Positions 1 through 44,519 of a stretch of DNA of 44,519 nucleotides are shown here, piece after piece (position 1 is the stretch's first letter; each line of letters begins with the position of its first letter). Location: positions 1-44,519 of the IMG/VR virus record IMGVR_UViG_3300030412_000381; one strand, written 5' to 3'. Both the position numbers and the translations under genes were made by a program. The DNA is from a virus. The notes below the pieces were generated by a model, which saw nothing but the letters and a program-made list of their open reading frames with translations, was not told the DNA's origin and did not search any database.

Positions 1-1293
1 CCCAGCGTTCTCAGTTATCAATACTACATTTTCCATCAGCCACTTTGCATCGTTGGCACCATTGGCTGAAGCATCGCTTCGCTGTATTGATTTAACTATC
101 TTTACTACTTCACTTTTAGACCACCCCATCACTTCTCGGATGTCTTCATAGTAATCTAATTTCATAATCTCATTGTCGAGCTTTGATACATTTCTCATCA
201 ATGTATCGGCAAGTTGTCGTTGCTCATCTCCGGCCACCAGTGAGGCCAATTTATCAATCTGCTCTCCGACAACGTTTGTGGGAGCCTGCATGAATGTGAG
301 TTGCGGTTCAGGCGCTTGCATGAATGTGAGCTGTGGCTCAGGGGACGGCATATCAGCAAAGGTTGCTTTAGCTTTCCAAAGGTTATAAACCATTGAGAAC
401 CCTTCAACCTTTGCTGATAGATATTTAATCACATCACCACCTGTCTTATCCTGACAATGGCCGTGATGACATTGGAATCCTATCGAATTATCGTCGTTGG
501 TAAAGATGGCTGACCCGCTATCATCTTCATCGGTGTGAGTATGTACCCAAGGACAAGTGACATCGTAACGACCAGCCGACAATGCCGATTTGATATTGAG
601 ATAATCCAGTACAGGATGGTCAATAGTGACAGCGCCAGACACGCGTACGTCAGGCCGCTCTGCATCTAATTCAACACCGAACGGTATTGCTAGCTGCTCC
701 ATGGTGTATAACCGCTCAGGGTGCCATTCAGTTACCTGACATTGGGGTGCTGCTCCGCCGTTCTCTTCGATACGCTTCGCTTTGGTGTTGTAACCTTCAG
801 GCAGGCGTAAGTATCGTGTCACACCTTTTTGTCCAGTATCTTTACCGTCGGGTGCAAGACCATTTGCTAACAATTGGTCATGTAAATTATCGAAGCGGTT
901 CCGATTCGTTTCAGGCACTTCAAGGATGTATAACCACTGCTCAGAATAGAGAGATGATTTAAGTACGATTGAAGGCGGCGGTAGTCGCTGCACCTGTTCA
1001 AGCGGTAGTTTCTCTTTAACATCATCAAGACCGATGACATAACATCCTGCGAAGTTGGCTTTACGACGTACTGCTCTACCTGTGTCCGCGTCGGGTGCGA
1101 ACGTTGAGACGGTGAAGAACTGATTCTCACCATCGCGCAATTTGTAATCTTTATAGTAACCACCAGCCCATGCGATACCGCGTTTATCGTTTGGAATTTG
1201 GTTCGGGTCAAATGGGAATGAGGCGACATGCGCATAGTGATACATGTCTCTGAAGATGGCTTTTAAATACTGGTCATTCGTTATTCTTATCAT
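1..1293 (-). CDS. Primase-helicase, N-terminal part (gene continues across the circular junction)
   Basis: The frame is open from ATG at 1293 to base 1 without a stop and continues in frame at 44420 down to 43263, giving 816 residues. This part holds an archaeo-eukaryotic-primase-like domain: an acidic LDD at residues 89-91 and the RYLRLPEGYN signature at 160-169. A probable zinc site follows (C247, H251, C275, H276, H279, C280), typical of phage primases of this class. Residues 318-337 are two copies of a 10-residue unit, a linker to the C-terminal helicase. Role: primer synthesis and unwinding at the phage fork. The start has upstream GGTG and lies in the divergent promoter region. Domain calls are by motif; exact metal ligands are inferred. 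Confidence 0.9.
   Translation of the reverse strand, partial: MIRITNDQYLKAIFRDMYHYAHVASFPFDPNQIPNDKRGIAWAGGYYKDYKLRDGENQFFTVSTFAPDADTGRAVRRKANFAGCYVIGLDDVKEKLPLEQVQRLPPPSIVLKSSLYSEQWLYILEVPETNRNRFDNLHDQLLANGLAPDGKDTGQKGVTRYLRLPEGYNTKAKRIEENGGAAPQCQVTEWHPERLYTMEQLAIPFGVELDAERPDVRVSGAVTIDHPVLDYLNIKSALSAGRYDVTCPWVHTHTDEDDSGSAIFTNDDNSIGFQCHHGHCQDKTGGDVIKYLSAKVEGFSMVYNLWKAKATFADMPSPEPQLTFMQAPEPQLTFMQAPTNVVGEQIDKLASLVAGDEQRQLADTLMRNVSKLDNEIMKLDYYEDIREVMGWSKSEVVKIVKSIQRSDASANGANDAKWLMENVVLITENAG
2..99. repeat. Terminal direct repeat, left copy (assembly overlap)
   Basis: These 98 bases are identical to 44422-44519. Base 1 differs from the matching base 44421. Because an intact reading frame spans the junction, the repeat most likely reflects a circular assembly graph (circular or circularly permuted DNA) and not true short terminal repeats. 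Confidence 0.95.
284..343 (-). repeat. Two 30-bp tandem repeats in the primase linker
   Basis: The 13-mer GCATGAATGTGAG occurs at 288-300 and 318-330, 30 bp apart. The protein reads PEPQLTFMQA twice between the zinc-binding primase region and the helicase. Several silent third-position differences separate the copies, so the peptide seems to be kept by selection. Confidence 0.85.
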
Positions 1294-1477: not shown

Positions 1478-1508
1478 CCTAACTTAACTAATCAATGGGG
1501 TTATTAAA

Positions 1509-1745: not shown

Positions 1746-1747
1746 TC

Positions 1748-2089: not shown

Positions 2090-2118
2090 GTAGATATCTA
2101 CTAACTCCGCATCACACA

Positions 2119-2138: not shown

Positions 2139-2173
2139 AAAGGGTGAAAACGTACATTTAAGAGGATTGAATT

Positions 2174-2341: not shown

Positions 2342-2355
2342 TTGAGAGAAATGTG

Positions 2356-2787
2356 ATGTCAAATAAAACAGAATTAAAAAATGGTGATAAATGTCACGTG
2401 AGTAATGTATCGGAAGAGGACGCATTGTCTAGGCCTAATACGGAAACATATAATTATATTGGGCATACAATAATTGGTGATCACATAATCGAAACCCCTG
2501 ACGGGCATACATTCTCTTGTAAGTATGTCACACCTATTCCAGAACCCGAGCTTGTGCCTTGGACTTATGATACCTGCCCGCTGCCCCCGTTTACCGTGAA
2601 GAGGAAAGGCTCTAACAACTTTATAGTGGTAATGAGTCTCAGTGATAATGGATGTCTCATGGGCCCGAATATTAATGTTGTTCGAGATTGGGTACATGAA
2701 GACTTTAAAAGGCTTCTTAACCATTATGAATACTTCCCAAATAAACAAGACCGAAATAATGTCTGGCCTTGTGGAGTTGTGAAATGA
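2356..2787 (+). CDS. Hypothetical protein with C-terminal PPFTVK module, 143 aa
   Basis: Start ATG 2356 follows GAGAG at proper spacing; GTG 2353 is an alternative. The C-terminal half (from about residue 70) contains CPLPPFTVKRKGSNN, a central Gly and a Y-x-Y-x-P ending. It aligns by eye with the C-terminal half of the 168-residue protein at 7119-7625, so the two are paralogues over this module. The N-terminal half (NGDKCHVSN...) resembles a small beta-barrel as in many phage accessory proteins. Its stop overlaps the next start (ATGA). Function unknown. Confidence 0.7.
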   Translation: MSNKTELKNGDKCHVSNVSEEDALSRPNTETYNYIGHTIIGDHIIETPDGHTFSCKYVTPIPEPELVPWTYDTCPLPPFTVKRKGSNNFIVVMSLSDNGCLMGPNINVVRDWVHEDFKRLLNHYEYFPNKQDRNNVWPCGVVK

Positions 2788-4219: not shown

Positions 4220-4232
4220 CCTGCGATAAAGG

Positions 4233-4263
4233 TGGACAAGGTTAAACAATGTGTTACACTGTC
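4233..4263 (+). promoter_or_regulatory. Promoter of the RHH/replication operon with three 10-bp-phased operator repeats
   Basis: TGGACA (4233-4238), 16-bp spacer, TACACT (4255-4260). Direct repeats ACAAGGTT (4236), ACAATGTG (4246) and ACACTGTC (4256) are spaced exactly 10 bp and cover the whole promoter. Binding of a protein here would block RNA polymerase. Because the next gene is an RHH DNA-binding protein, autorepression is the obvious hypothesis. Confidence 0.75.
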
Positions 4264-4287
4264 ATTATCTAAACGGGAGGTATCAAA

Positions 4288-4506
4288 ATGGCAGATGAAA
4301 AATTGGACGCACGATTTATGATTCGAGTTAATTCTGAAAAGATGAATCAATATCGTGAGTCAGCAGCAACCACGTACGGTAAAGACAGTAATGATTTACT
4401 ACGTGAATGTATGGACGCGCTGGTGGATGGACGACTTCGTATCACACCCACCGATGAACAACTTAAAACTTTAAAAACGAGAGAGGACTTATACGATGTC
4501 AATTGA
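4288..4506 (+). CDS. Ribbon-helix-helix (Arc-like) DNA-binding regulator, 72 aa
   Basis: A strong GGGAGG ribosome site precedes ATG 4288. The sequence matches an RHH fold: beta strand ARFMIRVN (residues 8-15), helix A SEKMNQYRESAATTYG (16-31), helix B DSNDLLRECMDALVDGRL (33-50), then an acidic tail. RHH proteins such as Arc, MetJ and omega bind as dimers to short repeated words, with the beta ribbon in the major groove. The gene's promoter carries three 10-bp-phased repeats that recur at other phage promoters, so it is the best candidate for the regulator of these sites. The family call is firm; the regulon is inference. Overlaps the next gene by 11 bases. Confidence 0.82.
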   Translation: MADEKLDARFMIRVNSEKMNQYRESAATTYGKDSNDLLRECMDALVDGRLRITPTDEQLKTLKTREDLYDVN

Positions 4507-4843
4507 AGAAACTTTAAATCGAATCGCGGATAGTAATGACAAGATAGTAGCATTATTATCTTCGGCGGCACCTGTAGCAACAACGCCAGCGGCACCTGTA
4601 GCAACAACGCCAGCGGCACCTGTAGCAACAACGCCAGCGGCACCTGTAGCAGCTCCACCTTCCGTCGATGCTTCATCATTGACTCTTGATTTCTTGAATG
4701 ATATGTGTGTGAAAGCAGCGACTAAATTACAAGATGGTGGCGCGGCGGTTCGTGCAATTCTATCCGAGTTCGGTGCAGCTACAATCGACACAATCCCACA
4801 AGCTAATCTGGTGCAGTTTCACGATAAGGTAAAGGCTTTATAA
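4496..4843 (+). CDS. Linker-containing hypothetical protein of the replication operon, 115 aa
   Basis: Begins inside the end of the RHH gene. Residues 1-22 form a helix, residues 23-55 are a Pro/Ala-rich linker with three AAPVATTP octads (24-bp period in DNA), and residues 56-115 form a compact helical domain (TLDFLNDMCVKA ... AILSEFGAATIDTIP). That domain is of a kind common next to phage recombination and replication genes. The linker shares the 12-mer GCACCTGTAGCA with the linker of the SSB gene. It is followed one base later by the DUF2800 nuclease. Function unknown; a small adaptor in the replication complex is possible. Confidence 0.7.
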   Translation: MSIEETLNRIADSNDKIVALLSSAAPVATTPAAPVATTPAAPVATTPAAPVAAPPSVDASSLTLDFLNDMCVKAATKLQDGGAAVRAILSEFGAATIDTIPQANLVQFHDKVKAL

Positions 4844-4844
4844 C

Positions 4845-6104
4845 ATGGGTGCACATGCAAGATTGGGGCCATCCAATAAGAGATGGCCAAAATGTGCAGG
4901 GTCAGTCCGTGAAGAAGCGGCGTACCCTGATACAAGCAGTGATGCGGCGATAGATGGCACGGGGTCGCATTTATTATTAGAATTGTGTTTGGTCAACGGC
5001 GTGAAAGCTGATACTTACATCGGGCAGACTATAGGTGTAGGAGATGCTGAAATGCCTATGGGTTGGTTCGTTGAAGCCGACCGTGCTAAACGTGTTCAAA
5101 TCTGCCTCGATTATGTATCACAACGCGTCGCTGAGTTGAAAGCCGAATATGGGGTTCAATACTCCGATGTTAAAGTGGCAGTCGAAGCTGAAACCATATC
5201 TAATGCGGGTGAAGCTTATGGTCGTGATGATTGGTGGGGTACGTGCGACATTACACTGGTGGTCATGGCTCGAAATTCAGATGATGAATTACACGAAGCG
5301 GTGTTTGTAGAAGTCATTGATTATAAAGATGGCAGAAGGTATGTAGATGAGAAGTTTAATACTCAATTAATGACATACCTGCACGGTAAAACATACGCAT
5401 TGATATCTTGTATCAGCGGTGCTATGACCATCGTACAACCTAAAACCAAAGTGGCTATCCGCACACATCACATGACGCTTGCGGATTTACAAAAAGAAGC
5501 TGATAAATTGGCTGTTGCTGCGGCTAAGACCGACGCATCAGATGCACCGCTAACCGCTGGCAAACATTGCCACGATTTTTGCAAGCATAAGCCTAACTGT
5601 CAGGAGTTTAAAAACCAAAAATTTGGGAGGATTAATGTCGTGGAAGAAATGGGACTAGTAGAGAAAGTCACCAACCACCTGCAAACAATGCAGGGTCATG
5701 AACTGAGTGCAATTTTAGATGTAGAAAAGGACTACACCAAAGCGTTCAAAGAAGCCAAAGAAGAAGCCATTCGTCGCATCAATAGCGGTCACACGGTGCC
5801 CAATTATATTGTAGGCAATGGTAGTAATAAGTACGTGTGGGCAGAAGATGAAGAAGAAATGATTAAGAAATTCAAAGGTCGGAAATTAACACAGGCCGAT
5901 TACTATGTTTCTAAACTCATCTCACCGGCGCAAGTTGAAAAGATGACTGAAAAATTATCTGAAACTCAGATTAAAGGGTTGCAGAAATTTGTCAAAACAG
6001 TTGAAGGTAATCCTTCGCTGAAGCGCACAAAGGCTCCTGAAAAACAAACCGCAGAGCAGATGTTCGGCGGTCAGGTGGAACAACCATTAACATTCTTATC
6101 ATAA
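4845..6104 (+). CDS. DUF2800 family PD-(D/E)XK nuclease, RecB/Cas4-like, 419 aa
   Basis: The N-terminus (LGPSNKRWPKCAGS) is typical of DUF2800. Nuclease motifs are seen in order: H42; GTCD with D135; a strand E156-V-I-D159-Y-K161; and the QLMTY motif (Q174-Y178) of RecB-family enzymes. C17 together with C242, C246 and C252 matches the one-plus-three cysteine layout of Cas4/AddB iron-sulphur nucleases. The family is usually paired with the DUF2815 SSB in phages, as here 12 bp downstream, and probably resects DNA ends for replication or recombination. The C-terminus carries a QTAEQMFGG element shared with the SSB and ends in PLTFLS. Confidence 0.88.
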   Translation: MGAHARLGPSNKRWPKCAGSVREEAAYPDTSSDAAIDGTGSHLLLELCLVNGVKADTYIGQTIGVGDAEMPMGWFVEADRAKRVQICLDYVSQRVAELKAEYGVQYSDVKVAVEAETISNAGEAYGRDDWWGTCDITLVVMARNSDDELHEAVFVEVIDYKDGRRYVDEKFNTQLMTYLHGKTYALISCISGAMTIVQPKTKVAIRTHHMTLADLQKEADKLAVAAAKTDASDAPLTAGKHCHDFCKHKPNCQEFKNQKFGRINVVEEMGLVEKVTNHLQTMQGHELSAILDVEKDYTKAFKEAKEEAIRRINSGHTVPNYIVGNGSNKYVWAEDEEEMIKKFKGRKLTQADYYVSKLISPAQVEKMTEKLSETQIKGLQKFVKTVEGNPSLKRTKAPEKQTAEQMFGGQVEQPLTFLS

Positions 6105-6116
6105 GGAAAATTAAAA

Positions 6117-6866
6117 ATGGCAACACAAACTACAATTAAAGTGAAAGGTATCATCCGTCATCAATCATTGCTAACAGCAACCGCTGCAATGAAAGCGAAC
6201 GGTCAACGATATGACCAAAAGAATTATTCGGTGAACGTACTAATTCCAAAAAATGAACCGATGGTTCCTACTATTAACCAAGCGTTTGAAACAGCGATTA
6301 CATCTGTATTTGGGAGTCCGGCATTGCCAGCAAACGCTCACACAGTATGGAAAGATTGTGCGGTATCAGATGCGGGTAATGCTGATTTGGCCAATTATTA
6401 TGAACTTCGGTTAGCGAGCCGTGAAGAGTACGAAAGACCATTGGTATGTGATGCCAATCATCAACCGATATTAGACCCTGCAACCGTAAAAGTAGGTGAT
6501 GAAGTGTGGGTGGTGGGTGTAGTCACAGCATACGATACGGGTGATGGTGGTACAAGCTGTTACCTCAACGGCACTATGATTACAGGCGTGGCAGGTGCAA
6601 TCCCTATTGATAAATTATCATCACGTCAAACCGCAGAGCAGATGTTTGGCGGGATGGCAGCACCTGTAGCAGCAGCACCTGTAGCAGCAGCACCTGTAGC
6701 AGCAGCACCTGTAGCAGCAGCACCTGTAGCAGCAGCACCTGTAGCACCTCAACATATCATGACGGCGGCGGCACAAGGTGCTACGTATGAAGCCATGATT
6801 ACTGCGGGGTGGACGGATGAAACCCTCATTGCCCATGGTATGATGATTCAACCTAGCTACGCTTAA
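6117..6866 (+). CDS. Single-stranded DNA-binding protein, DUF2815 family, 249 aa
   Basis: Preceded by AAGGAAA. Residues 1-165 fit the DUF2815/OB-fold SSB family: a basic N-terminal beta strand, YSVNVLIPK, and a core WVVGVV ... CYLNGTMITG. Residues 171-179 are QTAEQMFGG, identical to the nuclease C-terminus. A linker of AAPVA repeats (15-bp period) follows, then a C-terminal module (GATYEAMITAGWTDETLIAHGMM) seen in many phage SSB-like proteins. There is no acidic DDDxPF-like tip. It is expected to coat ssDNA at the fork and interact with nuclease and polymerase. A terminator hairpin follows. Confidence 0.88.
   Translation: MATQTTIKVKGIIRHQSLLTATAAMKANGQRYDQKNYSVNVLIPKNEPMVPTINQAFETAITSVFGSPALPANAHTVWKDCAVSDAGNADLANYYELRLASREEYERPLVCDANHQPILDPATVKVGDEVWVVGVVTAYDTGDGGTSCYLNGTMITGVAGAIPIDKLSSRQTAEQMFGGMAAPVAAAPVAAAPVAAAPVAAAPVAAAPVAPQHIMTAAAQGATYEAMITAGWTDETLIAHGMMIQPSYA
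6655..6746 (+). repeat. 15-bp tandem repeats encoding an Ala-Pro-Val linker in SSB
   Basis: About six copies of GCACCTGTAGCAGCA in tandem encode AAPVA units. The copies are nearly identical in DNA, so the linker length is likely variable between relatives. Confidence 0.9.
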
Positions 6867-6874
6867 TTACAACG

Positions 6875-6906
6875 AGCGGTCATCGACCGGTGGCCGCTTA
6901 TTTTCT
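6875..6906 (+). terminator. Rho-independent terminator after SSB
   Basis: AGCGGTCA (6875-6882) pairs with TGGCCGCT (6891-6898), 8 bp with one G-T pair and an 8-base loop, followed by TATTTTCT. It would end or attenuate the nuclease-SSB transcript before the polymerase genes. Confidence 0.65.
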
Positions 6907-6919
6907 AGGATAAAACACA

Positions 6920-7129
6920 ATGACTCAAGAATTGAATAAGGTTAAGGACATGATAGCTGCAAAACTGTATGACTCCCCTCACGGGTTGGTGTCTGTCAAT
7001 TTTGTGCTCTCTCTTATCGACGATTACATTGCAGACGTTGAGCGTGAGGCTCGCAGATGGCCTCCGACTGAAGAACGAATTGATATTATAGGACCGAACG
7101 GTAACACAGGGGAACATTATGAAAACTAA
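6920..7129 (+). CDS. Small hypothetical protein, 69 aa
   Basis: Preceded by CTAGGATAAA. The first 45 residues are helical (VKDMIAAKLYDSP ... VNFVLSLIDDYIADVEREARRW), the tail is polar. No recognised family. It overlaps the next gene by 11 bases and lies between SSB and DNA polymerase, so a replication-linked accessory role is possible but unproven. Confidence 0.65.
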   Translation: MTQELNKVKDMIAAKLYDSPHGLVSVNFVLSLIDDYIADVEREARRWPPTEERIDIIGPNGNTGEHYEN

Positions 7130-7625
7130 ATGGTTTAGAATTGCAAATTGTACGGACGCATTGGAGTTTTACAATCGGACAGTAGCTAACGATGTGGAAT
7201 GGCCTGACCCTCTTCGAGATATTATTTGTGACAATACCTCTGTCGTTCACTGCGGTTCGGGGTGGATGCACTTCGGGGTGACTGAGGATAATCTCGCGGT
7301 AATGCTATACGGTCATACGGATGCATGTATGACTCTTTCAGAACTTCGCGGGCAGTTTCCGATTGCGAGCGATGTCAAAATCAAAGACGTGACATATGTG
7401 AATTATTGGGGGGCCTCATCAGTCCCTTGCCCACCGTTTACAGTTAAATCTAAGCGGTTTAATCATATCACTACAGTAACTCAGACGACTGTATCAGGGG
7501 TTGTCGTGGATGGGGGATTTGTGAGCTACAAAGATTTATACAATCTGTATGATTATATCCCCGACCGAATGTCAAAGAATAGAACTGAACCCTGCTGTGC
7601 CAGCGTAGCAACACACGAGATTTAA
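7119..7625 (+). CDS. Hypothetical protein, paralogue of upstream early proteins, 168 aa
   Basis: The N-terminal half (ALEFYNRTVAND ... GWMHFGVTEDN ... CMTLSELRGQF) resembles the first module of the protein at 3503. The C-terminal half (CPPFTVKSKRFNH ... YDYIP) matches the C-terminal module of the protein at 2356. It therefore looks like a combination of two modules used elsewhere in the same phage. The stop codon abuts the polymerase start. No catalytic motif is seen. Confidence 0.7.
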   Translation: MKTKWFRIANCTDALEFYNRTVANDVEWPDPLRDIICDNTSVVHCGSGWMHFGVTEDNLAVMLYGHTDACMTLSELRGQFPIASDVKIKDVTYVNYWGASSVPCPPFTVKSKRFNHITTVTQTTVSGVVVDGGFVSYKDLYNLYDYIPDRMSKNRTEPCCASVATHEI

Positions 7626-9617
7626 ATGAGTTTCTTAAATACTTCGTCCCATTATTGGGTGTGGGATATAGAAACTTTCCCCAATATATTCACTGCGGCA
7701 TTTCATAACGTTGTGTCCGGTCAACGACTACTCTTTGAGATAAGTGACAGACGCAATGATGTACACCAACTCTTAGAGTTTGTAAATCAAGAAAGGGATA
7801 ACAACGCTACATTTATAGGGTTCAACTCGATAGGGTTCGACTATCCAGTATTGCACTACATCGTGAAGGTTGGTCCAAGCATCGCATTGAGTGAAATATA
7901 CAACAAGGCTATGTCAATCATCAACGCTGATTACAATAACCGGTTCAACTTTATGGTGTATGAGGACGACTGGCTCGTGGCGCAAATCGACTTGTTTAAA
8001 ATCCACCATTTCGATAACGTGTCACGAGCCACCAGCTTAAAGACTTTAGAAATTAATATGGGGATGGGTAATGTAGAAGACTTACCGTTTGACGTGGGGC
8101 TTATACTTGATAACTCTCAAAAGCAGGTTCTCATCACGTACAACTGGCACGATGTGGATGCTACATTACTGTTCTATTACTACTCTCTACCGATGATTAA
8201 GTTCAGACAAGAACTTTCCATCAAGTACAATAGGAATTTTATAAACCATAACGACGGGAAGATTGGTAAAGACTTCTTCATCATGAAACTTGAACAAGCT
8301 GTTGAAGGTAGTTGTTATGATACCTCATCGGGAAAGAAGGTCAAACGTCAGACGCTATACCCTAATGGTATCAATCTCAACGATGTGTTCTTTGACCATG
8401 TAGTACTTGAGCACCCTGAATTTCGACGGATTGAGTCATGGCTTCGAGCACAAACCATCACCGAGACAAAAGGTGTATTTAAAGGGCTGACGTGTAATGT
8501 GGATGGTTTAGAGTATGTGTTCGGGCTTGGTGGATTACATGCCAGCATCAACTCCTCGGTGGAATGTAGTGATGATGAGTTTCAACTTATCGACGTGGAT
8601 GTGGCGAGTTATTACCCGCGCATACCGATGAAAACAAGGTTAAAACCAGCGCACCTTCCTGACGTGTTTTGTGACATCTATGAGGAGGTGTTCTTAGAGC
8701 GTCGCAAATATGCCAAGGGTACGCCAGAGAACGCGATGTTAAAACTCGCATTGAACTCAGTTTATGGTGACAGTAATTCCAAGTACAGTCCATTTTTTGA
8801 TACCGCTTACACCATGGCCACGACTATTAACGGTCAGTTAATGCTGTGTATGCTGGTCGAACAAATTATAAAGATACCAAACGCAACAATGGTGCAGGCT
8901 AACACCGATGGCATCACTGTGAAATGCCCTCGCGCGTACATCGACCACTTCAGAGATGTGTGCAAGTGGTGGGAGTCAGTCACGCAGCTTGAACTCGAAG
9001 AGGTATTTTATTCACGCATGATGATTAAGGATGTGAATAATTATATTGCAGAGTATGAAGATGGCGGCGTAAAACGTAAAGGTGCATACGGGTATGGTGA
9101 TGATTTAGACTGGAATCAAAACTTCTCAGAGCAAATCGTAGCCAAAGCAGCAGAAGCTGCGCTGGTACGCGGCGAGAATGTAGAAGAGTTTATCCGTAAT
9201 CATTCAGATATAACAGACTTCTTAATCAATACTAAGGTGCCTCGTACATCCAATCTGGTGGGTACTATCGATGACAAAGATGTCAAGTTGCCGAACGTGG
9301 TGAGATACATTGTAACGAATGACGGGGTGTCGCTGAATAAAGTCATGCCCGCAAAAGGACCAGAGGGGCAGTTTAAGCGTGCCAACAGTTTAACCGATGA
9401 GTTCTATCAGTCTGTGTTAGATGAGATAGGCATGGGTGTATGGGATGCCCGCATTCATACAAAGAATAAGTCGGTGTATGGTGCAACGGTGCGGACCGGA
9501 ATTAATGCAGGTCACACTGTGACTATATGTAATAACCTTGACTCAATCAATCATGTAGATATAAATTATGATTACTACATATCGCGAGCCAATAAGCTGG
9601 TGATACCCTTACTCTAA
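7626..9617 (+). CDS. Family B-type DNA polymerase with 3'-5' exonuclease, 663 aa
   Basis: Exonuclease motifs: D14-I-E16, N67 to D72 (FNSIGFDY), and Y172 to D176 (YNWHDVD). Polymerase motif A is DVDVASYYP (D325 and Y329-Y330), motif B is K373-x3-N377-x2-Y380-G381, and motif C is NTDG (426-429). Motif C has Asn and Gly where many family B enzymes have DTDS; the catalytic D428 is kept, and I recall similar forms in other phage polymerases. At 663 residues it is short for family B, like protein-primed or compact phage enzymes, but no terminal-protein gene is recognised and a primase-helicase is present. It replicates the phage genome. Confidence 0.93.
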   Translation: MSFLNTSSHYWVWDIETFPNIFTAAFHNVVSGQRLLFEISDRRNDVHQLLEFVNQERDNNATFIGFNSIGFDYPVLHYIVKVGPSIALSEIYNKAMSIINADYNNRFNFMVYEDDWLVAQIDLFKIHHFDNVSRATSLKTLEINMGMGNVEDLPFDVGLILDNSQKQVLITYNWHDVDATLLFYYYSLPMIKFRQELSIKYNRNFINHNDGKIGKDFFIMKLEQAVEGSCYDTSSGKKVKRQTLYPNGINLNDVFFDHVVLEHPEFRRIESWLRAQTITETKGVFKGLTCNVDGLEYVFGLGGLHASINSSVECSDDEFQLIDVDVASYYPRIPMKTRLKPAHLPDVFCDIYEEVFLERRKYAKGTPENAMLKLALNSVYGDSNSKYSPFFDTAYTMATTINGQLMLCMLVEQIIKIPNATMVQANTDGITVKCPRAYIDHFRDVCKWWESVTQLELEEVFYSRMMIKDVNNYIAEYEDGGVKRKGAYGYGDDLDWNQNFSEQIVAKAAEAALVRGENVEEFIRNHSDITDFLINTKVPRTSNLVGTIDDKDVKLPNVVRYIVTNDGVSLNKVMPAKGPEGQFKRANSLTDEFYQSVLDEIGMGVWDARIHTKNKSVYGATVRTGINAGHTVTICNNLDSINHVDINYDYYISRANKLVIPLL

Positions 9618-9732
9618 TTTGGGCATATCCTAGCCGGTGGGAATAGCAGCATCGGTACAAAAGATATTCTGACTATAGTGGTGCCCACAGTTCATTTTAC
9701 CCACTCAAGAATATCAACTGCTATTATTAATG
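9618..9732 (+). other. Gene-free leader after DNA polymerase with alternative RNA stems
   Basis: No coding frame of note. TGGGCA (9620-9625) can pair with TGCCCA (9682-9687), and GATATTCT (9663-9670) with AGAATATC (9708-9715). The two stems interlock, so they would be exclusive or form a pseudoknot. This could be a transcript end or regulator upstream of the next promoter. Confidence 0.3.
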
Positions 9733-9762
9733 TTGACAATGTCTGACATTGTATGTTGTAAT
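9733..9762 (+). promoter_or_regulatory. Third rightward promoter with operator repeats and a perfect palindrome
   Basis: TTGACA (9733-9738) is followed by TGTAAT (9757-9762) at 18 bp, or TTGTAA at 17 bp. ACAATGTC (9736) and ACATTGTA (9746) keep the 10-bp period. Bases 9736-9752 are also a perfect inverted repeat, ACAATGTC-T-GACATTGT. It drives the nuclease, HD, TraR-like and helicase operon. Confidence 0.72.
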
Positions 9763-9800
9763 GTTATCTATCTTACACAGAGGGGAAATGGGGTGGCGAT

Positions 9801-10097
9801 ATGAACAATTTGATAGTACAGACTCCGAGAAGCACAGTCACGACACACGTTGACAGATTGAGAAGTGCAATTGACGAAAAGATTGACGAGTATATGTTAA
9901 ATCACGGGTGTGCTCCATCGGTCATCGCACTGTCCGAACCTCAAATGCTCGTGCTTTCACACAGTCTCACTCGTAGAACCACTCAGGAGGGATGCTACTA
10001 TAAAGGCATCCCTGTCGTGAGAACTTCAGCAGTGATATCTCTTGCACTTGCCGACGTTGAAGGTCTTCCTGCATTTCTACAACCTCAGGCGTATTAA
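9801..10097 (+). CDS. Hypothetical protein, 98 aa
   Basis: First gene after the third promoter. It has an N-terminal helix (THVDRLRSAIDEKIDEYMLNHG) followed by an alternating hydrophobic region (PSVIALSEPQMLVLS ... GIPVVRTSAVI), giving the impression of a small alpha/beta domain. It is not a family I can name. Two bases separate it from the VRR-NUC gene, so the two are probably translated together. Confidence 0.7.
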   Translation: MNNLIVQTPRSTVTTHVDRLRSAIDEKIDEYMLNHGCAPSVIALSEPQMLVLSHSLTRRTTQEGCYYKGIPVVRTSAVISLALADVEGLPAFLQPQAY

Positions 10098-10099
10098 TC

Positions 10100-10435
10100 A
10101 TGGGTAGAGAAGAGAATAAGGTTGAGACATACCTTCAGGAAAAGATAGAGGAAGCTGGCGGTATTACTCGTAAATGGGTGTCACCTAATCATGTCGGGGT
10201 TCCCGACCAGTTGGTGATAATCCCTGTCACTGTTCGCGAAATGATGGCGCGGTTGATGAAGATGGACCCGACCGAACTGGTGGCAGATATCACGGCGGTT
10301 GAAGTTAAGACGCTAGGCAACGTACCAGAAGACCACCAAATGCGTGAGATGAGACGCTTGCGTGATGCAGGGATGAACGTCACATGGGTTGCAGGGCGGC
10401 GAGGTGTAGATATCTATATGAGTAAGGTGAAATAG
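10100..10435 (+). CDS. VRR-NUC domain nuclease, 111 aa
   Basis: The complete protein is a stand-alone VRR-NUC domain of the PD-(D/E)XK superfamily. E8 lies in the first helix, GVPDQLVII gives the catalytic D of the GxPD motif, AVEVKT gives the E-x-K pair, and a conserved HQ (DHQMREM) begins the last helix. Stand-alone VRR-NUC proteins of this size are frequent in phages next to SNF2-like helicases and are thought to resolve branched DNA. The helicase at 12999 would be the natural partner. Confidence 0.9.
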   Translation: MGREENKVETYLQEKIEEAGGITRKWVSPNHVGVPDQLVIIPVTVREMMARLMKMDPTELVADITAVEVKTLGNVPEDHQMREMRRLRDAGMNVTWVAGRRGVDIYMSKVK

Positions 10436-10440
10436 TCTTT

Positions 10441-10590
10441 ATCGGGGTGATGCGGCGCTGAAAGTAGAAGCGCAGGTAAGGCCGAGCATACTGGGGATGG
10501 GCGAGCTTGCACTAGAAAAGTGGCGCTACTCCAATGGTTGAGTGCAGAATTATCCGCCCTATAGCTGGAATAACGCCCAGCCATCACCAC
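10441..10590 (+). ncRNA. Candidate structured RNA between VRR-NUC and downstream genes
   Basis: About 180 bases here have no supported gene but many complementary blocks. GGTGATG (10446-10452) pairs with CATCACC (10582-10588) and closes the region. GCGCT (10455-10459) pairs with AGCGC (10469-10473) around a 9-base loop. TGCACT (10508-10513) pairs with AGTGCA (10541-10546). GGGCG (10499-10503) can pair with CGCCC at either 10555-10559 or 10574-10578. The result looks like a closed multi-branch fold with a possible switch. It is followed by a ribosome site AGGAG and a gene at 10617. I match it to no named RNA family. Confidence 0.5.
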
Positions 10591-10616
10591 CAATAAAGAT
10601 TAAACAGGAGAGTTAG

Positions 10617-10766
10617 ATGAATGTTAAAGAGTTAGTGGAGAAACTACAGGCCCATGAAAACCAAGCGGCTAATATAGAATATTTTATAGTTGAGACTGAC
10701 GGTTCACTGGTTGCAGTTCATATTGAGAAAATGAGAAAGTCAATACTACGTTTATTAAAATTATAA
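10617..10766 (+). CDS. Small hypothetical protein, 49 aa
   Basis: ATG 10617 follows CAGGAGAG. It has a short helix (VKELVEKLQAHEN), a beta hairpin (EYFIVETDGSLVAVHIEK) and a basic C-terminal helix (RKSILRLLKL). The good ribosome site and tight fit between neighbours support translation. Function unknown. Confidence 0.6.
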   Translation: MNVKELVEKLQAHENQAANIEYFIVETDGSLVAVHIEKMRKSILRLLKL

Positions 10767-10787
10767 GCTGTGTTAGGAGATAGGGGA

Positions 10788-10940
10788 ATGCACTACGAAG
10801 AAAAGACAATCAACAACATATTAATGTATCGCACATCGCCAAGTGACGAGTTTCAGCAAGTGTCACCCGAATCAATGACGCTTATGATTCAGGATTTAAG
10901 GAGTCAGCTTTCTGGTAAGGAGTACGGGGTATATGAGTGA
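10788..10940 (+). CDS. Small hypothetical protein, 50 aa
   Basis: ATG 10788 follows AGGAGATAGGGG. The 50-residue product is polar and helical at its C-terminus (MTLMIQDLRSQLSG). It overlaps the next gene by eight bases, consistent with translational coupling. No family recognised. Confidence 0.6.
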   Translation: MHYEEKTINNILMYRTSPSDEFQQVSPESMTLMIQDLRSQLSGKEYGVYE

Positions 10941-11442
10941 ATTTAAAAGAGAAGGCCGTTATGTGATTTTAAAGCTTAAGCATATGAGTGGCACGGAAAA
11001 GTCGTGCCTAGCTTTATTATTGCATGATTACGAGGAATATTGCGTGGATGCCGTTGTTGTTGAGGCTGACTGGCCTATATATGAGGGCGCATGGGATGCT
11101 GTTCAGCGACTTTCTGAAGGAAAACCACAGCTTATCGACGAACAGCAAAAGCAGATTGATGAATTGAACGCCAGAATTAGCGCCGTAACTTTGGCAGCAA
11201 ACAATCTACGGAACGCTATCGATAATCACTATCCTGACACGCCTGAGTTTGCGAACTTGTATGTGAAGGCTATGGATGTAATTGATAGTCAACCGACCAC
11301 ACAATCACTAGCAGAGCATAACGCGCGGGTTGTTGAAACTATGCTGAACGCACTCCAAGACCCTAACTATCCACCGATGATGTATGACAGAGAAAGCATG
11401 GAAGAATATGCCAGCAACCTACGCAAGCAAGGAGAAGAGTGA
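10933..11442 (+). CDS. Ea22-like phage protein, 169 aa
   Basis: The N-terminal 60 residues (RYVILKLKHM ... VVVEADWPIYEGAWDAVQ) match a domain widespread in phage early regions. A helical coiled-coil-prone segment (residues 68-105) follows, then a tail starting SLAEHNARVVE that is characteristic of Ea22/ead-like proteins of enterobacterial phages. The function of the family is unknown. It is embedded in an accessory cluster with one-base overlap to the HD-domain gene. Its Ea22-like tail is one of the hints for a gammaproteobacterial host. Confidence 0.7.
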   Translation: MSEFKREGRYVILKLKHMSGTEKSCLALLLHDYEEYCVDAVVVEADWPIYEGAWDAVQRLSEGKPQLIDEQQKQIDELNARISAVTLAANNLRNAIDNHYPDTPEFANLYVKAMDVIDSQPTTQSLAEHNARVVETMLNALQDPNYPPMMYDRESMEEYASNLRKQGEE

Positions 11443-11447
11443 TGACT
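11423..11447 (+). repeat. 25-bp direct repeat at a gene junction, copy 1
   Basis: GCAAGCAAGGAGAAGAGTGA followed by TGACT is identical to 12442-12466. Both copies cover the end of one gene, a strong ribosome site and the start of the next. It may be a recombination boundary for exchange of accessory genes. Confidence 0.85.
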
Positions 11448-11966
11448 TTAGAAGAAAGAGCAAAACAGTTTGCAACTGAACGACACGCAGCGATAAACCA
11501 TATCAGGAAATACACAGGCGAGCCATACATTAATCACCCTGCTGCTGTCGTTGAGCTTGTGCGATCAGTTCCTCATACAGAGGAAATGCTGGCTGCGGCT
11601 TGGCTTCACGATACGGTTGAGGATACCGAAACCACTTTTGATGAAATTGGTGAAATATTTGGTCTCGACGTAGCATGGCTTGTGCTTAACCTAACAGATG
11701 TAAGCGTCCCTAGCGATGGAAACAGGAAAGCAAGAAAAACCCTCGATAGGCTGCATACTGCTACCGCCAAACCAGAAGCTAAAACAATAAAGCTTGCGGA
11801 CCTAATCGATAACTCGTCAAGCATATTAGAGTTTGATTATGATTTTGCCAGAGTTTATATAGAAGAAAAACGGCTACTGCTTGAAGTGCTAAAGGATGGC
11901 GATCCAGTGCTATGGGATAGGGCAAATAAAATAGTGCAAGATGCTCTTATTGAGCTAAACAAATAA
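11442..11966 (+). CDS. HD-domain hydrolase, SpoT/MESH1-like predicted (p)ppGpp hydrolase, 174 aa
   Basis: ATG 11442 shares its A with the previous TGA and follows AAGGAGAAGAG. The motifs of the RelA/SpoT HD domain are present in order: YINHP (H32), LHDTVEDT (H56-D57 and E60-D61), and KLADLIDN (D120, N124). The length equals a stand-alone hydrolase domain; there is no synthetase domain. Known relatives hydrolyse ppGpp to GDP and pyrophosphate with Mn2+. In a phage this would lower alarmone levels during infection. Other nucleotide substrates such as NADPH are possible. It lies about 860 bases before a TraR/DksA-like gene, which supports a stringent-response role. Confidence 0.85.
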   Translation: MTLEERAKQFATERHAAINHIRKYTGEPYINHPAAVVELVRSVPHTEEMLAAAWLHDTVEDTETTFDEIGEIFGLDVAWLVLNLTDVSVPSDGNRKARKTLDRLHTATAKPEAKTIKLADLIDNSSSILEFDYDFARVYIEEKRLLLEVLKDGDPVLWDRANKIVQDALIELNK

Positions 11967-12006
11967 CAATGAGCACATTAGCGATAACAAGTGATAGAGG
12001 TGAGTG

Positions 12007-12276
12007 ATGAAACCTTGCGTGAATTTAGGAACAGTCGGGCACTGCGATAACGCCAAAGCAGCAACAAAATTATTAATTAACGCTTTAGATAAGGCTGCAG
12101 TCGTGGAAGCAGATTCTGAAAAAAAAGTGCTTGAGCTTCGCCCGCTAGGCGCCGTATTAATTGAGCCTTGTCGGGGGTTTGCAATGCTAAAAAGACAAGG
12201 CGACGAGCCGTGGCGCAGAGAAAATAAGCGGCCTAAAATTTCACAAGCCAAGAGAAGAAGGCGGGCTAGAAAATGA
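12007..12276 (+). CDS. Short protein with EF-Tu-like N-terminal motif and degenerate P-loop, 89 aa
   Basis: ATG 12007 follows AGAGG. Residues 5-20 read VNLGTVGHCDNAKAAT, strikingly similar to the N-terminal G1 region of translational GTPases (VNxGTIGHVDHGKTTLT). The P-loop Gly and Thr are replaced by Ala (A16, A18, A19) while K17 is kept, so nucleotide binding is doubtful. The rest does not resemble a GTPase, and the last 20 residues are very basic (KRPKISQAKRRRRARK), suggesting nucleic-acid or ribosome binding. It might be a decoy of EF-Tu, or a phage family that only borrows the motif. Confidence 0.6.
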   Translation: MKPCVNLGTVGHCDNAKAATKLLINALDKAAVVEADSEKKVLELRPLGAVLIEPCRGFAMLKRQGDEPWRRENKRPKISQAKRRRRARK

Positions 12277-12461
12277 GCAGAACGAAAACTTCGAGTTTAT
12301 GCAGTAAGTGCAATCTTTCTATAGATGATGACGACTTTTGCTTGAAATACACAAGAAACAGCCCGATAGAGGCTAAGATTATTATGAATGCTCTGACTAC
12401 AGGTAAATGTGGAGAGTATATACCGATACAGAAACCTAACGGCAAGCAAGGAGAAGAGTGA
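12273..12461 (+). CDS. Small cysteine-containing hypothetical protein, 62 aa
   Basis: Overlaps the previous gene by four bases (ATGA). CSKC at residues 10-13 and later cysteines (C23, and C46 in GKCGEYIP) suggest a small zinc-binding fold. The C-terminus overlaps the 25-bp repeat that also serves as ribosome site for the next gene. No named family. Confidence 0.6.
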   Translation: MSRTKTSSLCSKCNLSIDDDDFCLKYTRNSPIEAKIIMNALTTGKCGEYIPIQKPNGKQGEE

Positions 12462-12466
12462 TGACT
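12442..12466 (+). repeat. 25-bp direct repeat at a gene junction, copy 2
   Basis: Identical to 11423-11447, about 1.0 kb apart. Recombination between copies would delete the HD hydrolase, EF-Tu-motif and small zinc genes as a unit and leave an intact ribosome site. Confidence 0.85.
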
Positions 12467-12817
12467 AAACCAACCGAGCAACAAGTAATAGATTGTGACG
12501 ACGAGCAACAGCTTAGTGAATGGGCGGCTATTTATTGTATGGGGTGGTCGCTAGACGAAGAAAATGACGACTGGATTTATCATGGAGCCGCCATGATTGG
12601 TCGAGCATATTACAACCCATGCCAGAACAACGCTCAAGCTATTGAGTTGATGGTTAAGTTTGGCGTTTCGCCAGCAAAAGTCACTAGAGATGAAGGGGAA
12701 ATATTCATCGTATCAATTTGGGGTAGTCGAGAACGGGTATATATTGTTGGCGATAAAGATGAGGTGGCAAAAATTATAACAAAAGCCGCAATATGCAGCG
12801 CGATTAGAAAAGGATAA
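12461..12817 (+). CDS. Phage ABA-sandwich-like hypothetical protein, 118 aa
   Basis: ATG 12461 lies in the 25-bp repeat with strong GGAGAAG. The segment AYYNPCQNNAQAIELMVKFGVSP followed by a strand-rich stretch resembles small alpha-beta-alpha sandwich proteins (DUF2591-like) of phages. These usually hold a conserved N-x-A-x-A helix. The function of that family is unknown. Placed five bases before the TraR-like gene. Confidence 0.6.
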   Translation: MTKPTEQQVIDCDDEQQLSEWAAIYCMGWSLDEENDDWIYHGAAMIGRAYYNPCQNNAQAIELMVKFGVSPAKVTRDEGEIFIVSIWGSRERVYIVGDKDEVAKIITKAAICSAIRKG

Positions 12818-12822
12818 GAGTA

Positions 12823-13002
12823 ATGGCAGATGAAGCAGATATTGCAAATGATAGAATTGAACTAGAGATGAACTTAACAATGAGGGCAAGGCAGAAAGTA
12901 AAGCGGTTTAGCGTTGACTGCGTCGAGTGTGGGGAATATATACCTCAAGCCAGACAGCAGATTTTAGGCGGTACAGATAAGTGCGTAAGGTGCGCAGAAT
13001 GA
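12823..13002 (+). CDS. TraR/DksA-like zinc-finger regulator, 59 aa
   Basis: The N-terminus MADEADIAND matches the start of plasmid TraR, whose acidic residues reach the RNA polymerase active site through the secondary channel. C33-x2-C36-x17-C54-x2-C57 is exactly the DksA/TraR zinc-finger spacing. The protein ends two residues after the last cysteine, so the C-terminal helix of TraR is missing. Known TraR acts like DksA plus ppGpp on rRNA and amino-acid promoters. Its stop overlaps the helicase start (ATGA). Confidence 0.88.
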   Translation: MADEADIANDRIELEMNLTMRARQKVKRFSVDCVECGEYIPQARQQILGGTDKCVRCAE

Positions 13003-14480
13003 TGCACCCGTCTCAGCTCTATGATTACCAGAAACATGCCGTAGCACACCAGACCGCAAACCCGTATTCGATGTTGTGGTTGGGTGTTGGATTGGGTAAA
13101 ACCGTCATCACCTTAACCTCAATCGTTGACTTAATGCGTGCGGGACTGGTACAAAAGGCTATCATATTCGGGCCGCTAAGGGTGGTGGAAGCGGTCTGGG
13201 AACGAGAGTCAAAGAAGTGGGAGCACACCACCCACTTACGCTGTCAATTGCTGTCTGGTACGGCGGCAACTCGGCGCAGGAAATTATTCAAAGATGCCGA
13301 TATATATTTATGCAACTACGAGAACATGAATTGGTTGGCTGATACGTTGATGAAATACTACATCACCCAAGGGAAAGACATACCATTTCAAATGGCGGTT
13401 TATGACGAAGTCACTAAATTAAAGAACTCTCAATCGGTGCGGTTTAAGGGTGGCAGGCGGGAGAAGGTGGATAAGGTTACTAAGTTATCGTACATTGAGA
13501 AGGTGGTAGGGTGGAAAAAAATCAACGACCTGTTCACATACAGGACCGGCCTAACAGGTTCGCCCGCCAGCAACGGGTATATCGATTTGTTCGGACAGTA
13601 TTACGCGGTTGATGGTGGGGAACGGTTCGGCACCAGTGTTACTTATTTCAGAAACGCATATTTCGCAAGTGATTATATGGGGTGGTCGTACAGTGTTACC
13701 CCGATAGGCAAGCATTACATTGAAGAGAAAATTTCAGACATCACTATAAAGATGGATAGTAAAGAGTACCTAGACTTACCCGCCGTGCGAGAGGTCAACA
13801 TCATGGTGGATTTGCCAGCCAAAGCACGCAAGCATTATAAAGAGATGGAGGCGAAGATGTTCACCGCACTGGATAGCGGTACAGAAATGGAAGTGTTTAG
13901 CAAATCCAGCGTGGGAAATAAATGTTTGCAAATATGCAACGGTAACCCCTACACCGATTTGGACGGGTCATGGGAGAACATTCATCATGCCAAACTCGAT
14001 GCACTTGAGGATGTATTAGAAGAAGCTGGTGGGCAACCTGTGCTACTAGCTTACGCGTTTAAATCTGACGCGAAGCAAATAATGCAGCGGTTTAAGAAAT
14101 ATAAACCAGTAAACTTAACAGCGGAACCGAGTAGTAAGACGGGGCAAATAATCAAAGACTGGAATGCGGGTAAAATTAAACTACTCATCGGTCATCCTGC
14201 AAGCATGGGTCACGGCATCGATGGTCTACAGGATAGCGGTTCGATAGTGGTATGGTTCGGACTTAACTGGTCATTGGAATTATACATTCAATTGAACGGC
14301 AGGATTGACCGTAATGGTCAGAAGAATCCAGTATCAATCATCCGAATACTATGCAACGATACTCTCGACCTTGCAGTTGCCGATGCAATCATGCGTAAGG
14401 CAGGTGATGAGGAGGGGTTGAAGGACTCTATCGGTAGGTATCGGGCAGGTAAGGCCAGCGCTGAATTATCATTTCTATGA
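12999..14480 (+). CDS. SNF2-like superfamily 2 helicase, 493 aa
   Basis: The start is taken as ATG 12999, overlapping the TraR-like stop. An upstream GTG at 12981 is in frame but inside that gene. Motif I is GVGLGKT (29-35), motif II is YDEVTKLK with D136-E137 as in SNF2-type DExx proteins, and motif VI is GRIDRNGQ (434-441). No extra domains. Phage relatives occur with VRR-NUC nucleases and act in DNA remodelling at forks. The protein ends in ELSFL. The gene is the last of the rightward arm and overlaps by six bases the last gene of the leftward arm. Confidence 0.92.
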   Translation: MMHPSQLYDYQKHAVAHQTANPYSMLWLGVGLGKTVITLTSIVDLMRAGLVQKAIIFGPLRVVEAVWERESKKWEHTTHLRCQLLSGTAATRRRKLFKDADIYLCNYENMNWLADTLMKYYITQGKDIPFQMAVYDEVTKLKNSQSVRFKGGRREKVDKVTKLSYIEKVVGWKKINDLFTYRTGLTGSPASNGYIDLFGQYYAVDGGERFGTSVTYFRNAYFASDYMGWSYSVTPIGKHYIEEKISDITIKMDSKEYLDLPAVREVNIMVDLPAKARKHYKEMEAKMFTALDSGTEMEVFSKSSVGNKCLQICNGNPYTDLDGSWENIHHAKLDALEDVLEEAGGQPVLLAYAFKSDAKQIMQRFKKYKPVNLTAEPSSKTGQIIKDWNAGKIKLLIGHPASMGHGIDGLQDSGSIVVWFGLNWSLELYIQLNGRIDRNGQKNPVSIIRILCNDTLDLAVADAIMRKAGDEEGLKDSIGRYRAGKASAELSFL

Positions 14481-42477: not shown

Positions 42478-42604
42478 GTTCTTTTCTCCCAACACATTTT
42501 TCACATTTATCACCATACTTCCCAATTCTGTACACTACCTCACGATGACATTTGCACCCTTTGCAGTAGAACATTCCCACCGGTGTTAATTCTTTATTCT
42601 TCAT
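42467..42604 (-). CDS. Small zinc-ribbon-like protein, 45 aa
   Basis: ATG 42604 overlaps the previous TGA (ATGA). The 45-residue product has CKGC at 14-17 followed by C19-H20, and CEKC at 34-37, spaced as a zinc ribbon. Basic (11 Lys, 4 Arg). Overlap with both neighbours and codon pattern support it, though it is short. Confidence 0.6.
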   Translation of the reverse strand: MKNKELTPVGMFYCKGCKCHREVVYRIGKYGDKCEKCVGRKEHAK

Positions 42605-42882
42605 ACCTTTACCCCGCGTACTTTAAACCCTGCTCTTTCAATCATATCCCTAATCCACTCAGCATCTACATTCGCTAAAGAAGCATGGACCATACCGGAC
42701 TGCAAATACCGCATCGCGTTTCGTGAAGCCCGCCCCGCAGCATTATCATGATTAACAGACCGGATAAAAGCATCTTCTATTGCACTCGCTACAATACCGA
42801 ACATCAATTTACCCTGCGGTGATTCATGAAACTGTGGGCGAATTTTTGCATTAATCGCTTTAACTTTATCTCTTGTTTTCAT
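42601..42882 (-). CDS. Hypothetical protein, first gene of the leftward operon, 93 aa
   Basis: Preceded by GAGGAGTTGGT. Helical, basic (KTRDKVKAINAKIRPQF), with SAIEDAFIRSVNHDNAAGRASRNAMRYL in the middle and WIRDMIERAGFKVRGVKV at the end. No family recognised. It starts 35 bp downstream of the -10 of the leftward promoter and is followed by coupled small genes. Confidence 0.7.
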   Translation of the reverse strand: MKTRDKVKAINAKIRPQFHESPQGKLMFGIVASAIEDAFIRSVNHDNAAGRASRNAMRYLQSGMVHASLANVDAEWIRDMIERAGFKVRGVKV

Positions 42883-42916: not shown

Positions 42917-42944
42917 ATAATACTACACCGTCATACAATGTCAA
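42917..42944 (-). promoter_or_regulatory. Leftward promoter of the terminase operon with operator repeats
   Basis: Minus strand TTGACA (42944-42939), 16-bp spacer, TATTAT (42922-42917). On the plus strand ACACCGTC (42925) and ACAATGTC (42935) form two 10-bp-phased repeats that overlap the -35 and spacer. Confidence 0.72.
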
Positions 42945-42951: not shown

Positions 42952-43262
42952 AAAGGTAGTCAGGTAACCACGACTATCACCGTTTCTATAGAGGCATATT
43001 AGAATGTGTGTATGTTAAAGTAATACATTAAGTAACAATATTGATATACTCTAAATATAAGTATAGTGGTTACCTGACTACCTTTTACCCTAAGTCTTTG
43101 ATTCTATTAGCAAATAGCGGTAACCACCACTCGAAAAAGGTAGCCACTACTTTTAGCATTAACGCTACAAACGCGTGTTTCTAGCACGTGTTTCATAAAA
43201 CACACGCAAAAAAAGACGCTTAAAAAAGCGTCAATTTAAACACACGCTACAAACACGCGTTT
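42952..43262. other. Gene-free region with inverted and direct repeats, candidate replication origin
   Basis: There is no supported gene in about 310 bases. AAAGGTAGTCAGGTAACCAC (42952-42971) is repeated inverted and perfectly at 43066-43085. Between them lies an AT-rich core (about 43005-43065). GGTAACCAC (43119-43127) and AAAGGTAGCCAC (43136-43147) are further copies of parts of the element. A 23-bp direct repeat (43162-43184 and 43244-43266, 21 matches) and AAACACACGC words follow. The region adjoins the primase-helicase gene. Together this looks like an origin with iterons and an unwinding element; it is inference. Confidence 0.55.
43208..43232 (-). terminator. Rho-independent terminator after the primase-helicase
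   Basis: On the minus strand GACGCTT-TTTT-AAGCGTC is a perfect 7-bp stem with a 4-base loop, followed by seven T. It ends primase-helicase transcription before the leftward promoter of the terminase operon. Confidence 0.85.
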
Positions 43263-44519
43263 CTAGGAGTCGTTTAGACCCGACATTAATTGCACGTGAT
43301 AATATTCGTGTAATTCCACAGCACGCATTTCTCTGCACGCCTCATCGTTGGACCAGAATCTGACAACAGGGAGTCCTTTCTTCTGTGCTCGATATGATTC
43401 GTACCCTTCACGCGTCAGCATTTCCCCAACTCGTCTCTGACTTCTAACACCTGTGCTTTCTCGCAGCTTCATCATCAAGTCCGCAATGCGGAAACACTTC
43501 GGATTGAACACACCATCATCCAACCACTCCATCGCCATCGATTCGTACTCTGGCCGAGATGCATGTACCATTTTCCGCATTGCAGCAGTACGAACAGGCA
43601 ACTGTCCTGCGTTGAAGTTGGAGATGTCATAGTTAAGCAGGTAGTGATAGATGCCAGCAACAAAGTCAGGGTTGAAGTTAATCTCATCCCCTAACGCACG
43701 GTAGAATTCAATCGGCAATCGGTCGCTGCAATCTATGACCAATAATTTATCATCGTCTTCTTCAAACTGTAACGCATCGGCGTGGTTCGTGCACATATAC
43801 ATAGAGTACAGATTACGTTGAGTCTTCAGCCCTTGCCCTTTGATGTTCAATGTTTCTATATCATCATTGGCAAGCTTGGATTTGAGTTCATTGAACTGAC
43901 GCTTATCAGGCTGCCATACTTCTTCAAATATCAGCACCTTCTTGCCATTGAATATGTCACCCCATCCCGCTGCAACATCCTTATCACCTACCACAGATGC
44001 AGAGCCTGCAAAGATGATTGCCATGGGTTTTAACACTAATGACTTACCTGTTCTAGCACGACCACCGTTGATAATCTGCCATCGAATCTTCACTTCTGGT
44101 TTTTGCACAGTAAACGCCATGTGACCCAGAGCGTGATGCACGTTCTCTTTATATACATGGTCCATCAACTGCAACCACATCGTGATATCGTAAGGTTTTG
44201 GCACGATGGAAGGCGCACGGTAGGTATTGAGATATGTGTGTCCATCATATTCAAAAGTACGCTCTGGCGTAGGGTGCCACCCGATTTTATCTGCTGTCTG
44301 TTTCATTCGGCTACTCGCTATTATTGTAGAGGGAGTCTCATCACCTAGCTGCATGTGTGAGTACGTTGCATTCAATGACATGGGGCTTTGGAAAATGTTG
44401 CGTGATAAGTTATAAAACCCACCAGCGTTCTCAGTTATCAATACTACATTTTCCATCAGCCACTTTGCATCGTTGGCACCATTGGCTGAAGCATCGCTTC
44501 GCTGTATTGATTTAACTAT
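43263..44519 (-). CDS. Primase-helicase, C-terminal SF3-like helicase part
   Basis: This is the C-terminal half of the same gene as complement(1..1293); the last 98 bases of the window duplicate bases 2-99. Seen here are a Walker A motif GGRARTGKS (full-length residues 550-558), a Walker B strand ending in EE (597-598) and a sensor-1-like TNHAD (642-646). This arrangement is characteristic of the DUF5906 / superfamily 3 helicase module of phage primase-helicases. The stop TAG is at 43263-43265 and overlaps a 23-bp repeat of the adjacent putative origin. A strong terminator follows on this strand. The protein should be the replicative helicase working with the phage polymerase and SSB. Confidence 0.92.
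   Translation of the reverse strand: MVKSIQRSDASANGANDAKWLMENVVLITENAGGFYNLSRNIFQSPMSLNATYSHMQLGDETPSTIIASSRMKQTADKIGWHPTPERTFEYDGHTYLNTYRAPSIVPKPYDITMWLQLMDHVYKENVHHALGHMAFTVQKPEVKIRWQIINGGRARTGKSLVLKPMAIIFAGSASVVGDKDVAAGWGDIFNGKKVLIFEEVWQPDKRQFNELKSKLANDDIETLNIKGQGLKTQRNLYSMYMCTNHADALQFEEDDDKLLVIDCSDRLPIEFYRALGDEINFNPDFVAGIYHYLLNYDISNFNAGQLPVRTAAMRKMVHASRPEYESMAMEWLDDGVFNPKCFRIADLMMKLRESTGVRSQRRVGEMLTREGYESYRAQKKGLPVVRFWSNDEACREMRAVELHEYYHVQLMSGLNDS
44422..44519. repeat. Terminal direct repeat, right copy (assembly overlap)
   Basis: Exact second copy of bases 2-99. Removing one copy leaves a circle of about 44,420 bp and restores the primase-helicase gene. Confidence 0.95.

Follow-up and report, generated by a model that had tools for sequence, protein, structure and literature searches.

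A probable replication origin with inverted iterons around an AT-rich core, 3' of the primase-helicase gene of a complete phage

The window, i.e. the whole stretch of 44,519 nt analysed here (IMG/VR record IMGVR_UViG_3300030412_000381, positions 1 to 44,519), derives from a record that had been classed as linear, but its ends share 98 bp (window 2-99 = 44422-44519). The genome is circular or circularly permuted with a length of 44,420 bp, and the record ends cut the primase-helicase gene in two. This gene is a single minus-strand gene of 816 aa, which begins at 1293, reaches the start of the record and continues from 44519 to 43263. Early genes occupy the plus strand from 1509 to 14480 (exonuclease/DUF2800, an Enc34-type SSB, an A-family DNA polymerase at 7626-9617 and a SNF2-type helicase), and the minus strand bears the primase and the late genes. 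The window carries terminase, portal, capsid and tail genes and therefore represents a phage rather than a PICI, a satellite without structural genes of its own. The most repetitive stretch of the genome (2769-3506) encodes a 245-aa protein of hexapeptide-like repeats (ARVFDNAQIYG...).

The region under study extends from the primase stop (43263) to the first ORF on the late side (42601-42882). The initial annotation had proposed a replication origin here, in DNA without genes, and the region indeed lies in a gene-free gap that extends from the primase-helicase stop to the late operon. The gap and its surroundings contain the following features:

1..1293, minus strand: 5' part of the primase-helicase gene with the primase domain, continuing across the record ends
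42917..42944, minus strand: sigma-70-like promoter TTGACA-16-TATTAT, directed toward the late operon (consensus match only, 11/12)
42952..42971, plus strand: left iteron pair AAAGGTAGTCAGGTAACCAC, the left arm of the inverted repeat, with units GGTAGTCA (42955-42962) and GGTAACCA (42963-42970)
42972..43065, no strand: AT-rich core by its AT content, presumed melting site
43066..43085, minus strand: right iteron pair, the right arm, with minus-strand units at 43067-43074 and 43075-43082
43119..43126, plus strand: outer iteron GGTAACCA (repeat search)
43139..43146, plus strand: outer iteron GGTAGCCA, inside AAAGGTAGCCA at 43136-43146 (repeat search)
43165-43184 and 43247-43266, no strand: two near-palindromic 20-mers CTACAAACRCGYGTTTCTAG on either side of the terminator (repeat search)
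43215..43232, minus strand: intrinsic terminator of the primase gene (sequence prediction)
43263..44519, minus strand: 3' part of the primase-helicase gene with the helicase and a C-terminal winged-helix-like domain, the proposed initiator

The arms had been described as a perfect 20-bp inverted repeat 94 bp apart, and 42952-42971 and 43066-43085 are 100% complementary with 94 nt between them. They form the sole perfect 20-bp inverted repeat of the window with a spacing of up to 200 bp, and at this spacing 20 dinucleotide-shuffled genomes yielded no perfect inverted repeat of 20 or even 14 bp. The enclosed DNA, likewise reported as AT-rich, reaches 74% AT against 55% in the genome, a value matched by 0.05% of the 94-bp windows in the genome, and its inner 67 bp (42999-43065; 80.6% AT) tie the genome maximum. 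Two further partial copies were found as claimed (43119-43126 and 43136-43146). The unit underlying these repeats is GGTARYCA, present as a tandem pair in each arm and as two outer copies: of 13 copies in the whole window, six lie within 42955-43146 (192 bp; Poisson p about 1e-13, for a motif defined after seeing the region). When the whole window is ranked for inverted 8-mer repeats the candidate region comes first; for direct repeats it is outscored by 2951-3300, 4451-4800 and 6651-7000, but these intragenic repeats sit in coding sequence. Inverted iteron pairs, for which a hairpin is not required, are the best reading of the perfect inverted repeat.

A 23-bp direct repeat (43162-43184 and 43244-43266; 21/23 bases match) overlaps the primase-helicase stop, which it had been said to reach, and belongs to a pair of 32 nt with 81% identity. 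The second of the CTACAAACRCGYGTTTCTAG copies overlaps the stop codon, and no others occur in the window. This terminator-proximal direct repeat (43162-43275) looks like an element separate from the iterons. At the other end of the gap the sigma-70-like promoter stands 7 bp from the left arm. Because this near-consensus match faces the late genes, the gap most likely also holds a late promoter and is probably the starting point of the late operon as well.

The C-terminal 397 aa of the primase-helicase were modelled with AlphaFold2 (pLDDT 85.9, pTM 0.78, 32 aligned sequences), and the model ends in a predicted helix-helix-helix-strand-strand arrangement typical of a winged helix. The best Foldseek matches in the PDB were the C-terminal region of the NrS-1 polymerase (E 4e-18) and the SaPI5 primase-helicase (E 8e-9), followed by PriRep1 with dsDNA (E 5e-7). 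NrS-1 polymerase (6k9c, 6lrb) is the closest solved structure to the helicase and C-terminal part, with 14-15% identity; no iteron origin was found described for it in the text consulted. Since sequence identity to the fold matches is low (12-15%), the modelled relationship to the SaPI5 and NrS-1 proteins is a kinship of fold and not a proof of function. A phmmer search with the C-terminal 70 aa against the PDB gave no match, and the primase search in host genomes returned one match (33%). Among 26 loci, iteron similarity correlates with similarity of the C-terminus (Mantel r 0.66) and less with that of the helicase core (0.49), with a residual iteron/C-terminal correlation of 0.47 (all Mantel p 0.0002); a few related pairs among these loci carry most of the signal.

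Comparison with relatives had been suggested as a check, and an absence of the repeats from close relatives with the same replication genes had been named as the observation that would speak against an origin. Such an absence was looked for and not found: the repeat family and the AT-rich core are kept 3' of the primase-helicase in L096, L097 and L141, whose helicase parts are 63%, 39% and 38% identical to that of the window. GGTAG-type arrays with an AT-rich stretch thus directly follow the primase in 4/4 members of the helicase clade, a sample of four independent members only, and the inverted-8-mer statistic reaches p 0.001-0.002 against dinucleotide shuffles in each of them. In L096 (IMGVR_UViG_3300029926_000006), with a primase-helicase 63% identical, five GGTAGTCA units lie within 190 bp just 3' of the primase around an AT-rich stretch, out of eight in the 48.7-kb record, and a weaker sigma-70-like promoter occupies the equivalent position. 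The 15-mer AAAGGTAGTCAGGTA of the left arm is identical in L096 and L141; in L141/L140, which represent a phage with an SU10-type portal, it is accompanied by more GGTAG units 3' of the primase. L097 has inverted GGTAG-type repeats directly after the primase with AT-rich DNA between them; its genes (S24 repressor, cro-like gene, small HTH-like gene, primase) are arranged much as in an early region of lambdoid type, and its contig yielded no terminase. This contig is temperate-looking; serine-recombinase-like and TnpB-like ORFs at 1283-3324, judged by eye to be an IS607-like insertion, separate the S24 repressor from the primase region. The pattern AAGGTAGTCAGGTARYCAC occurs among the viral contigs only in that of L096, apart from one chance match in coding DNA (L088). 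The clade arrays hence stand in three gene contexts, i.e. the late operon of the present phage type, the SU10-type portal phage and the lambdoid-like early region. Because L096, L141/L140 and L097 keep them across differing neighbours, it is the helicase, and neither the late operon nor the packaging genes, with which the putative iterons travel.

Beyond this clade, distant relatives were sampled without bias by running helicase profiles against 398 genomes from a single phylum and 369 from a single class, which gave 19 distinct testable loci on pieces of 3-4 kb. A significant inverted iteron array (p<=0.01) is present in the 600 bp after the stop at 12 of these prophage-like loci, in none of the gene-internal controls, and no significant array was detected within that distance at the other seven. 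Each locus has its own motif, e.g. GTGCAGGGT, CAGGTAACGCA, ATCAGAGCG or AAATGAGGCAA, often with a tandem period of 9-10 bp and an AT-rich core; in L172 and L163 as many as 10 units recur at a 9-bp period. Because the 19 loci may be prophages or PICIs, ten named phages, drawn from BLAST lists and several of them related to one another, were tested as well. Nine carry a significant array (pAN, S1, Turba, H4907, Mcat9, Silvanus, PG1, Mcat4 and KT1), and phage phiM5 has none within 600 bp after the stop; among the gene-internal controls of the named phages, 1/9 also reached p<=0.01.

A different arrangement is found in Vibrio phages, whose primase N-termini are 40-51% identical and whose helicase is of another type (about 23% identical). 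Their TGACAC-family repeats adjoin the late operon, kilobases from the primase and beside a small DNA-binding-like gene, and some metagenomic members show the same displaced arrangement. These repeats may be a displaced origin or serve late control. The small gene at the late-operon start (L091 35087-35545, L092 42914-43372, L093 42433-42891, L090 39665-40546) ends in a domain like the primase C-terminus, probably a winged helix, of which MZH0603 has about three copies; the gene product is possibly a regulator or an origin binder split from the primase. An HMM of this gene found nothing in the window or in the neighbourhood of L096. The primases of Vibrio phages PS25B.1 and 1.021.A (L091 41183-43810, L092 35734-38328) have diverged N-termini and nearly identical C-terminal helicase halves, which suggests a domain exchange. 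The annotated 'CRISPR spacers' of Vibrio phage 1.185.O (L093 28101-28318) are situated within a tandem-repeat gene and appear to be an artefact of annotation.

Judged from sequence comparison, we consider the region, with a probability of about 85%, to be a phage replication origin of the SaPI/PICI type, in which two iteron sets surround an AT-rich melting site 3' of a self-loading primase-helicase. The proposal of an origin beside this gene gains support from a layout that persists in relatives with differing neighbours and follows many distant relatives of the enzyme. The C-terminal domain of the SaPI Rep protein recognises iterons that directly follow the gene of this protein, which seems to occupy them as two hexamers (PMC7581432). 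In PICI origins an AT-rich region is flanked by two sets of iterons, and a pri-ori plasmid was maintained only with both its parts, pri and ori (PMC6092414). The window resembles these systems (Rep or Pri-Rep plus ori) in its array of short iterons (42952-43146) immediately 3' of the initiator gene, in the inverted tandem pairs around the core, and in a self-loading, D5/SF3-like helicase with a fused primase, whose fold matches the SaPI5 primase-helicase and whose C-terminal end is predicted to bind DNA. It differs from them as a complete phage that encodes an A-family DNA polymerase, and its primase-helicase has 13% identity to that of SaPI5.

Similar elements are known outside the PICIs. The fused primase-helicase of BPP-1/BIP-1 (bbp29) is followed, about 470 bp past its stop, by a pair of tandem GCCTCGTTT units that a 73-bp core separates from two units in inverted orientation, after which the terminase genes come as in the window; in contrast to the window, the iteron is AAACGAGGC and one small gene (bbp28) lies between primase and array. 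The element 3' of the BIP-1 gene had been interpreted as a 'large stem-loop' without iterons (PMC4234260). In plasmid pRN1, too, the gene of ORF904 (prim-pol/SF3 helicase/winged helix) is closely followed on its 3' side by an essential origin element, and according to its authors pRN1 lacks iterons; the window region can fold, but iterons are present. In satellite phage P4 the winged-helix end of the alpha protein, a helicase-primase, binds the origin repeats (ori/crr) (PMC4234260), a likeness drawn here by description, although P4 has a Toprim-type primase and iterons of another sequence.

At such an origin, the 8-bp GGTARYCA iterons in their inverted pairs would be bound by the winged-helix-like end of the primase-helicase, probably in the form of two hexamers with opposite orientation. 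The intervening AT-rich core would then melt, the helicases would load and unwind outwards in a bidirectional start, and the fused primase would lay primers to be extended by the A-family DNA polymerase of the phage. GC skew, proposed earlier as a check on the location, speaks neither for nor against it: the circular cumulative minimum lies near position 273, roughly 1.6 kb away, within a broad flat minimum at the divergent boundary of early and primase transcription. Third-codon skew gave no signal, the primase gene being the same as the late genes. A DnaA-dependent origin, which calls for a cluster of DnaA boxes, was considered and rejected: no exact TTATNCACA was found near the region, and near-matches in the whole window are fewer than in shuffles.

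Other readings were weighed. The repeats could be operators of a late-operon regulator, either an activator or a looping repressor on both arms, for a promoter that drives the small ORFs, the terminase and the structural genes, with replication starting elsewhere. The close spacing of promoter and left arm fits this, as do the same distance at the weaker L096 promoter and the repeat cluster of the Vibrio relatives at the start of their late operon. We nevertheless regard it as improbable: in L097, PG1, H4907 and Mcat4/9 the arrays follow the primase though no divergent late operon starts there, L141 keeps the unit sequence with a structural module of another type, and an operator would need neither so many copies nor an AT maximum between them. 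That the small terminase subunit binds here, at a pac or cos region upstream of terS, is hardly credible, even though the region lies to the late side, with about 1.1 kb and several small ORFs between it and the downstream terS. The L097 array stays with the primase on a contig that yielded no terminase, TerS families differ among phages that share the unit, and L141 has no match to the TerS profile of this phage.

Alternatively, recognition might be directed at a large cruciform or stem-loop built from the 20-bp arms, as proposed for pRN1 and BIP-1, with the unit sequence being secondary. The strand does fold better than its shuffles (z -3.8), pRN1 depends on the integrity of a 100-nt stem-loop 3' of orf904, and the BIP-1 gene has been noted to be followed by a large stem-loop (PMC4234260). 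Yet relatives keep and multiply the unit, to as many as 10 copies in L172 and L163, the arm spacing changes (the best 17-bp pair of L096 lies 50 bp apart), and the BPP-1 stem is itself built of two tandem GCCTCGTTT units per arm; iterons therefore fit better than one fixed hairpin, and recognition of the structure itself seems quite improbable. A combination of origin and late promoter is conceivable, if rather unlikely: the primase-helicase on the left iteron pair would start replication and also control late transcription. Such a switch, if true, would time the late genes to replication without a dedicated regulator.

The kind of origin proposed here is known, and the present case adds an instance from a phage that encodes a polymerase of its own. 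Some phages of Gram-positive bacteria have been reported to carry origins with repeats next to their primase genes. In 2018 the iteron/AT-rich layout was called exclusive to PICIs; the arrays predicted here indicate that it is not confined to them and follows related primase-helicases in many phages. The open-licence literature yielded no earlier phage example of this layout besides BIP-1/pRN1, and earlier reports may exist. The 'large stem-loop' of BIP-1 thereby gains an alternative reading as inverted iterons, and a group of phages with fused primase-helicases obtains a testable origin. If the arrangement is general, the sequence 3' of such genes would predict both the origins of these phages and the DNA specificity of their initiators.
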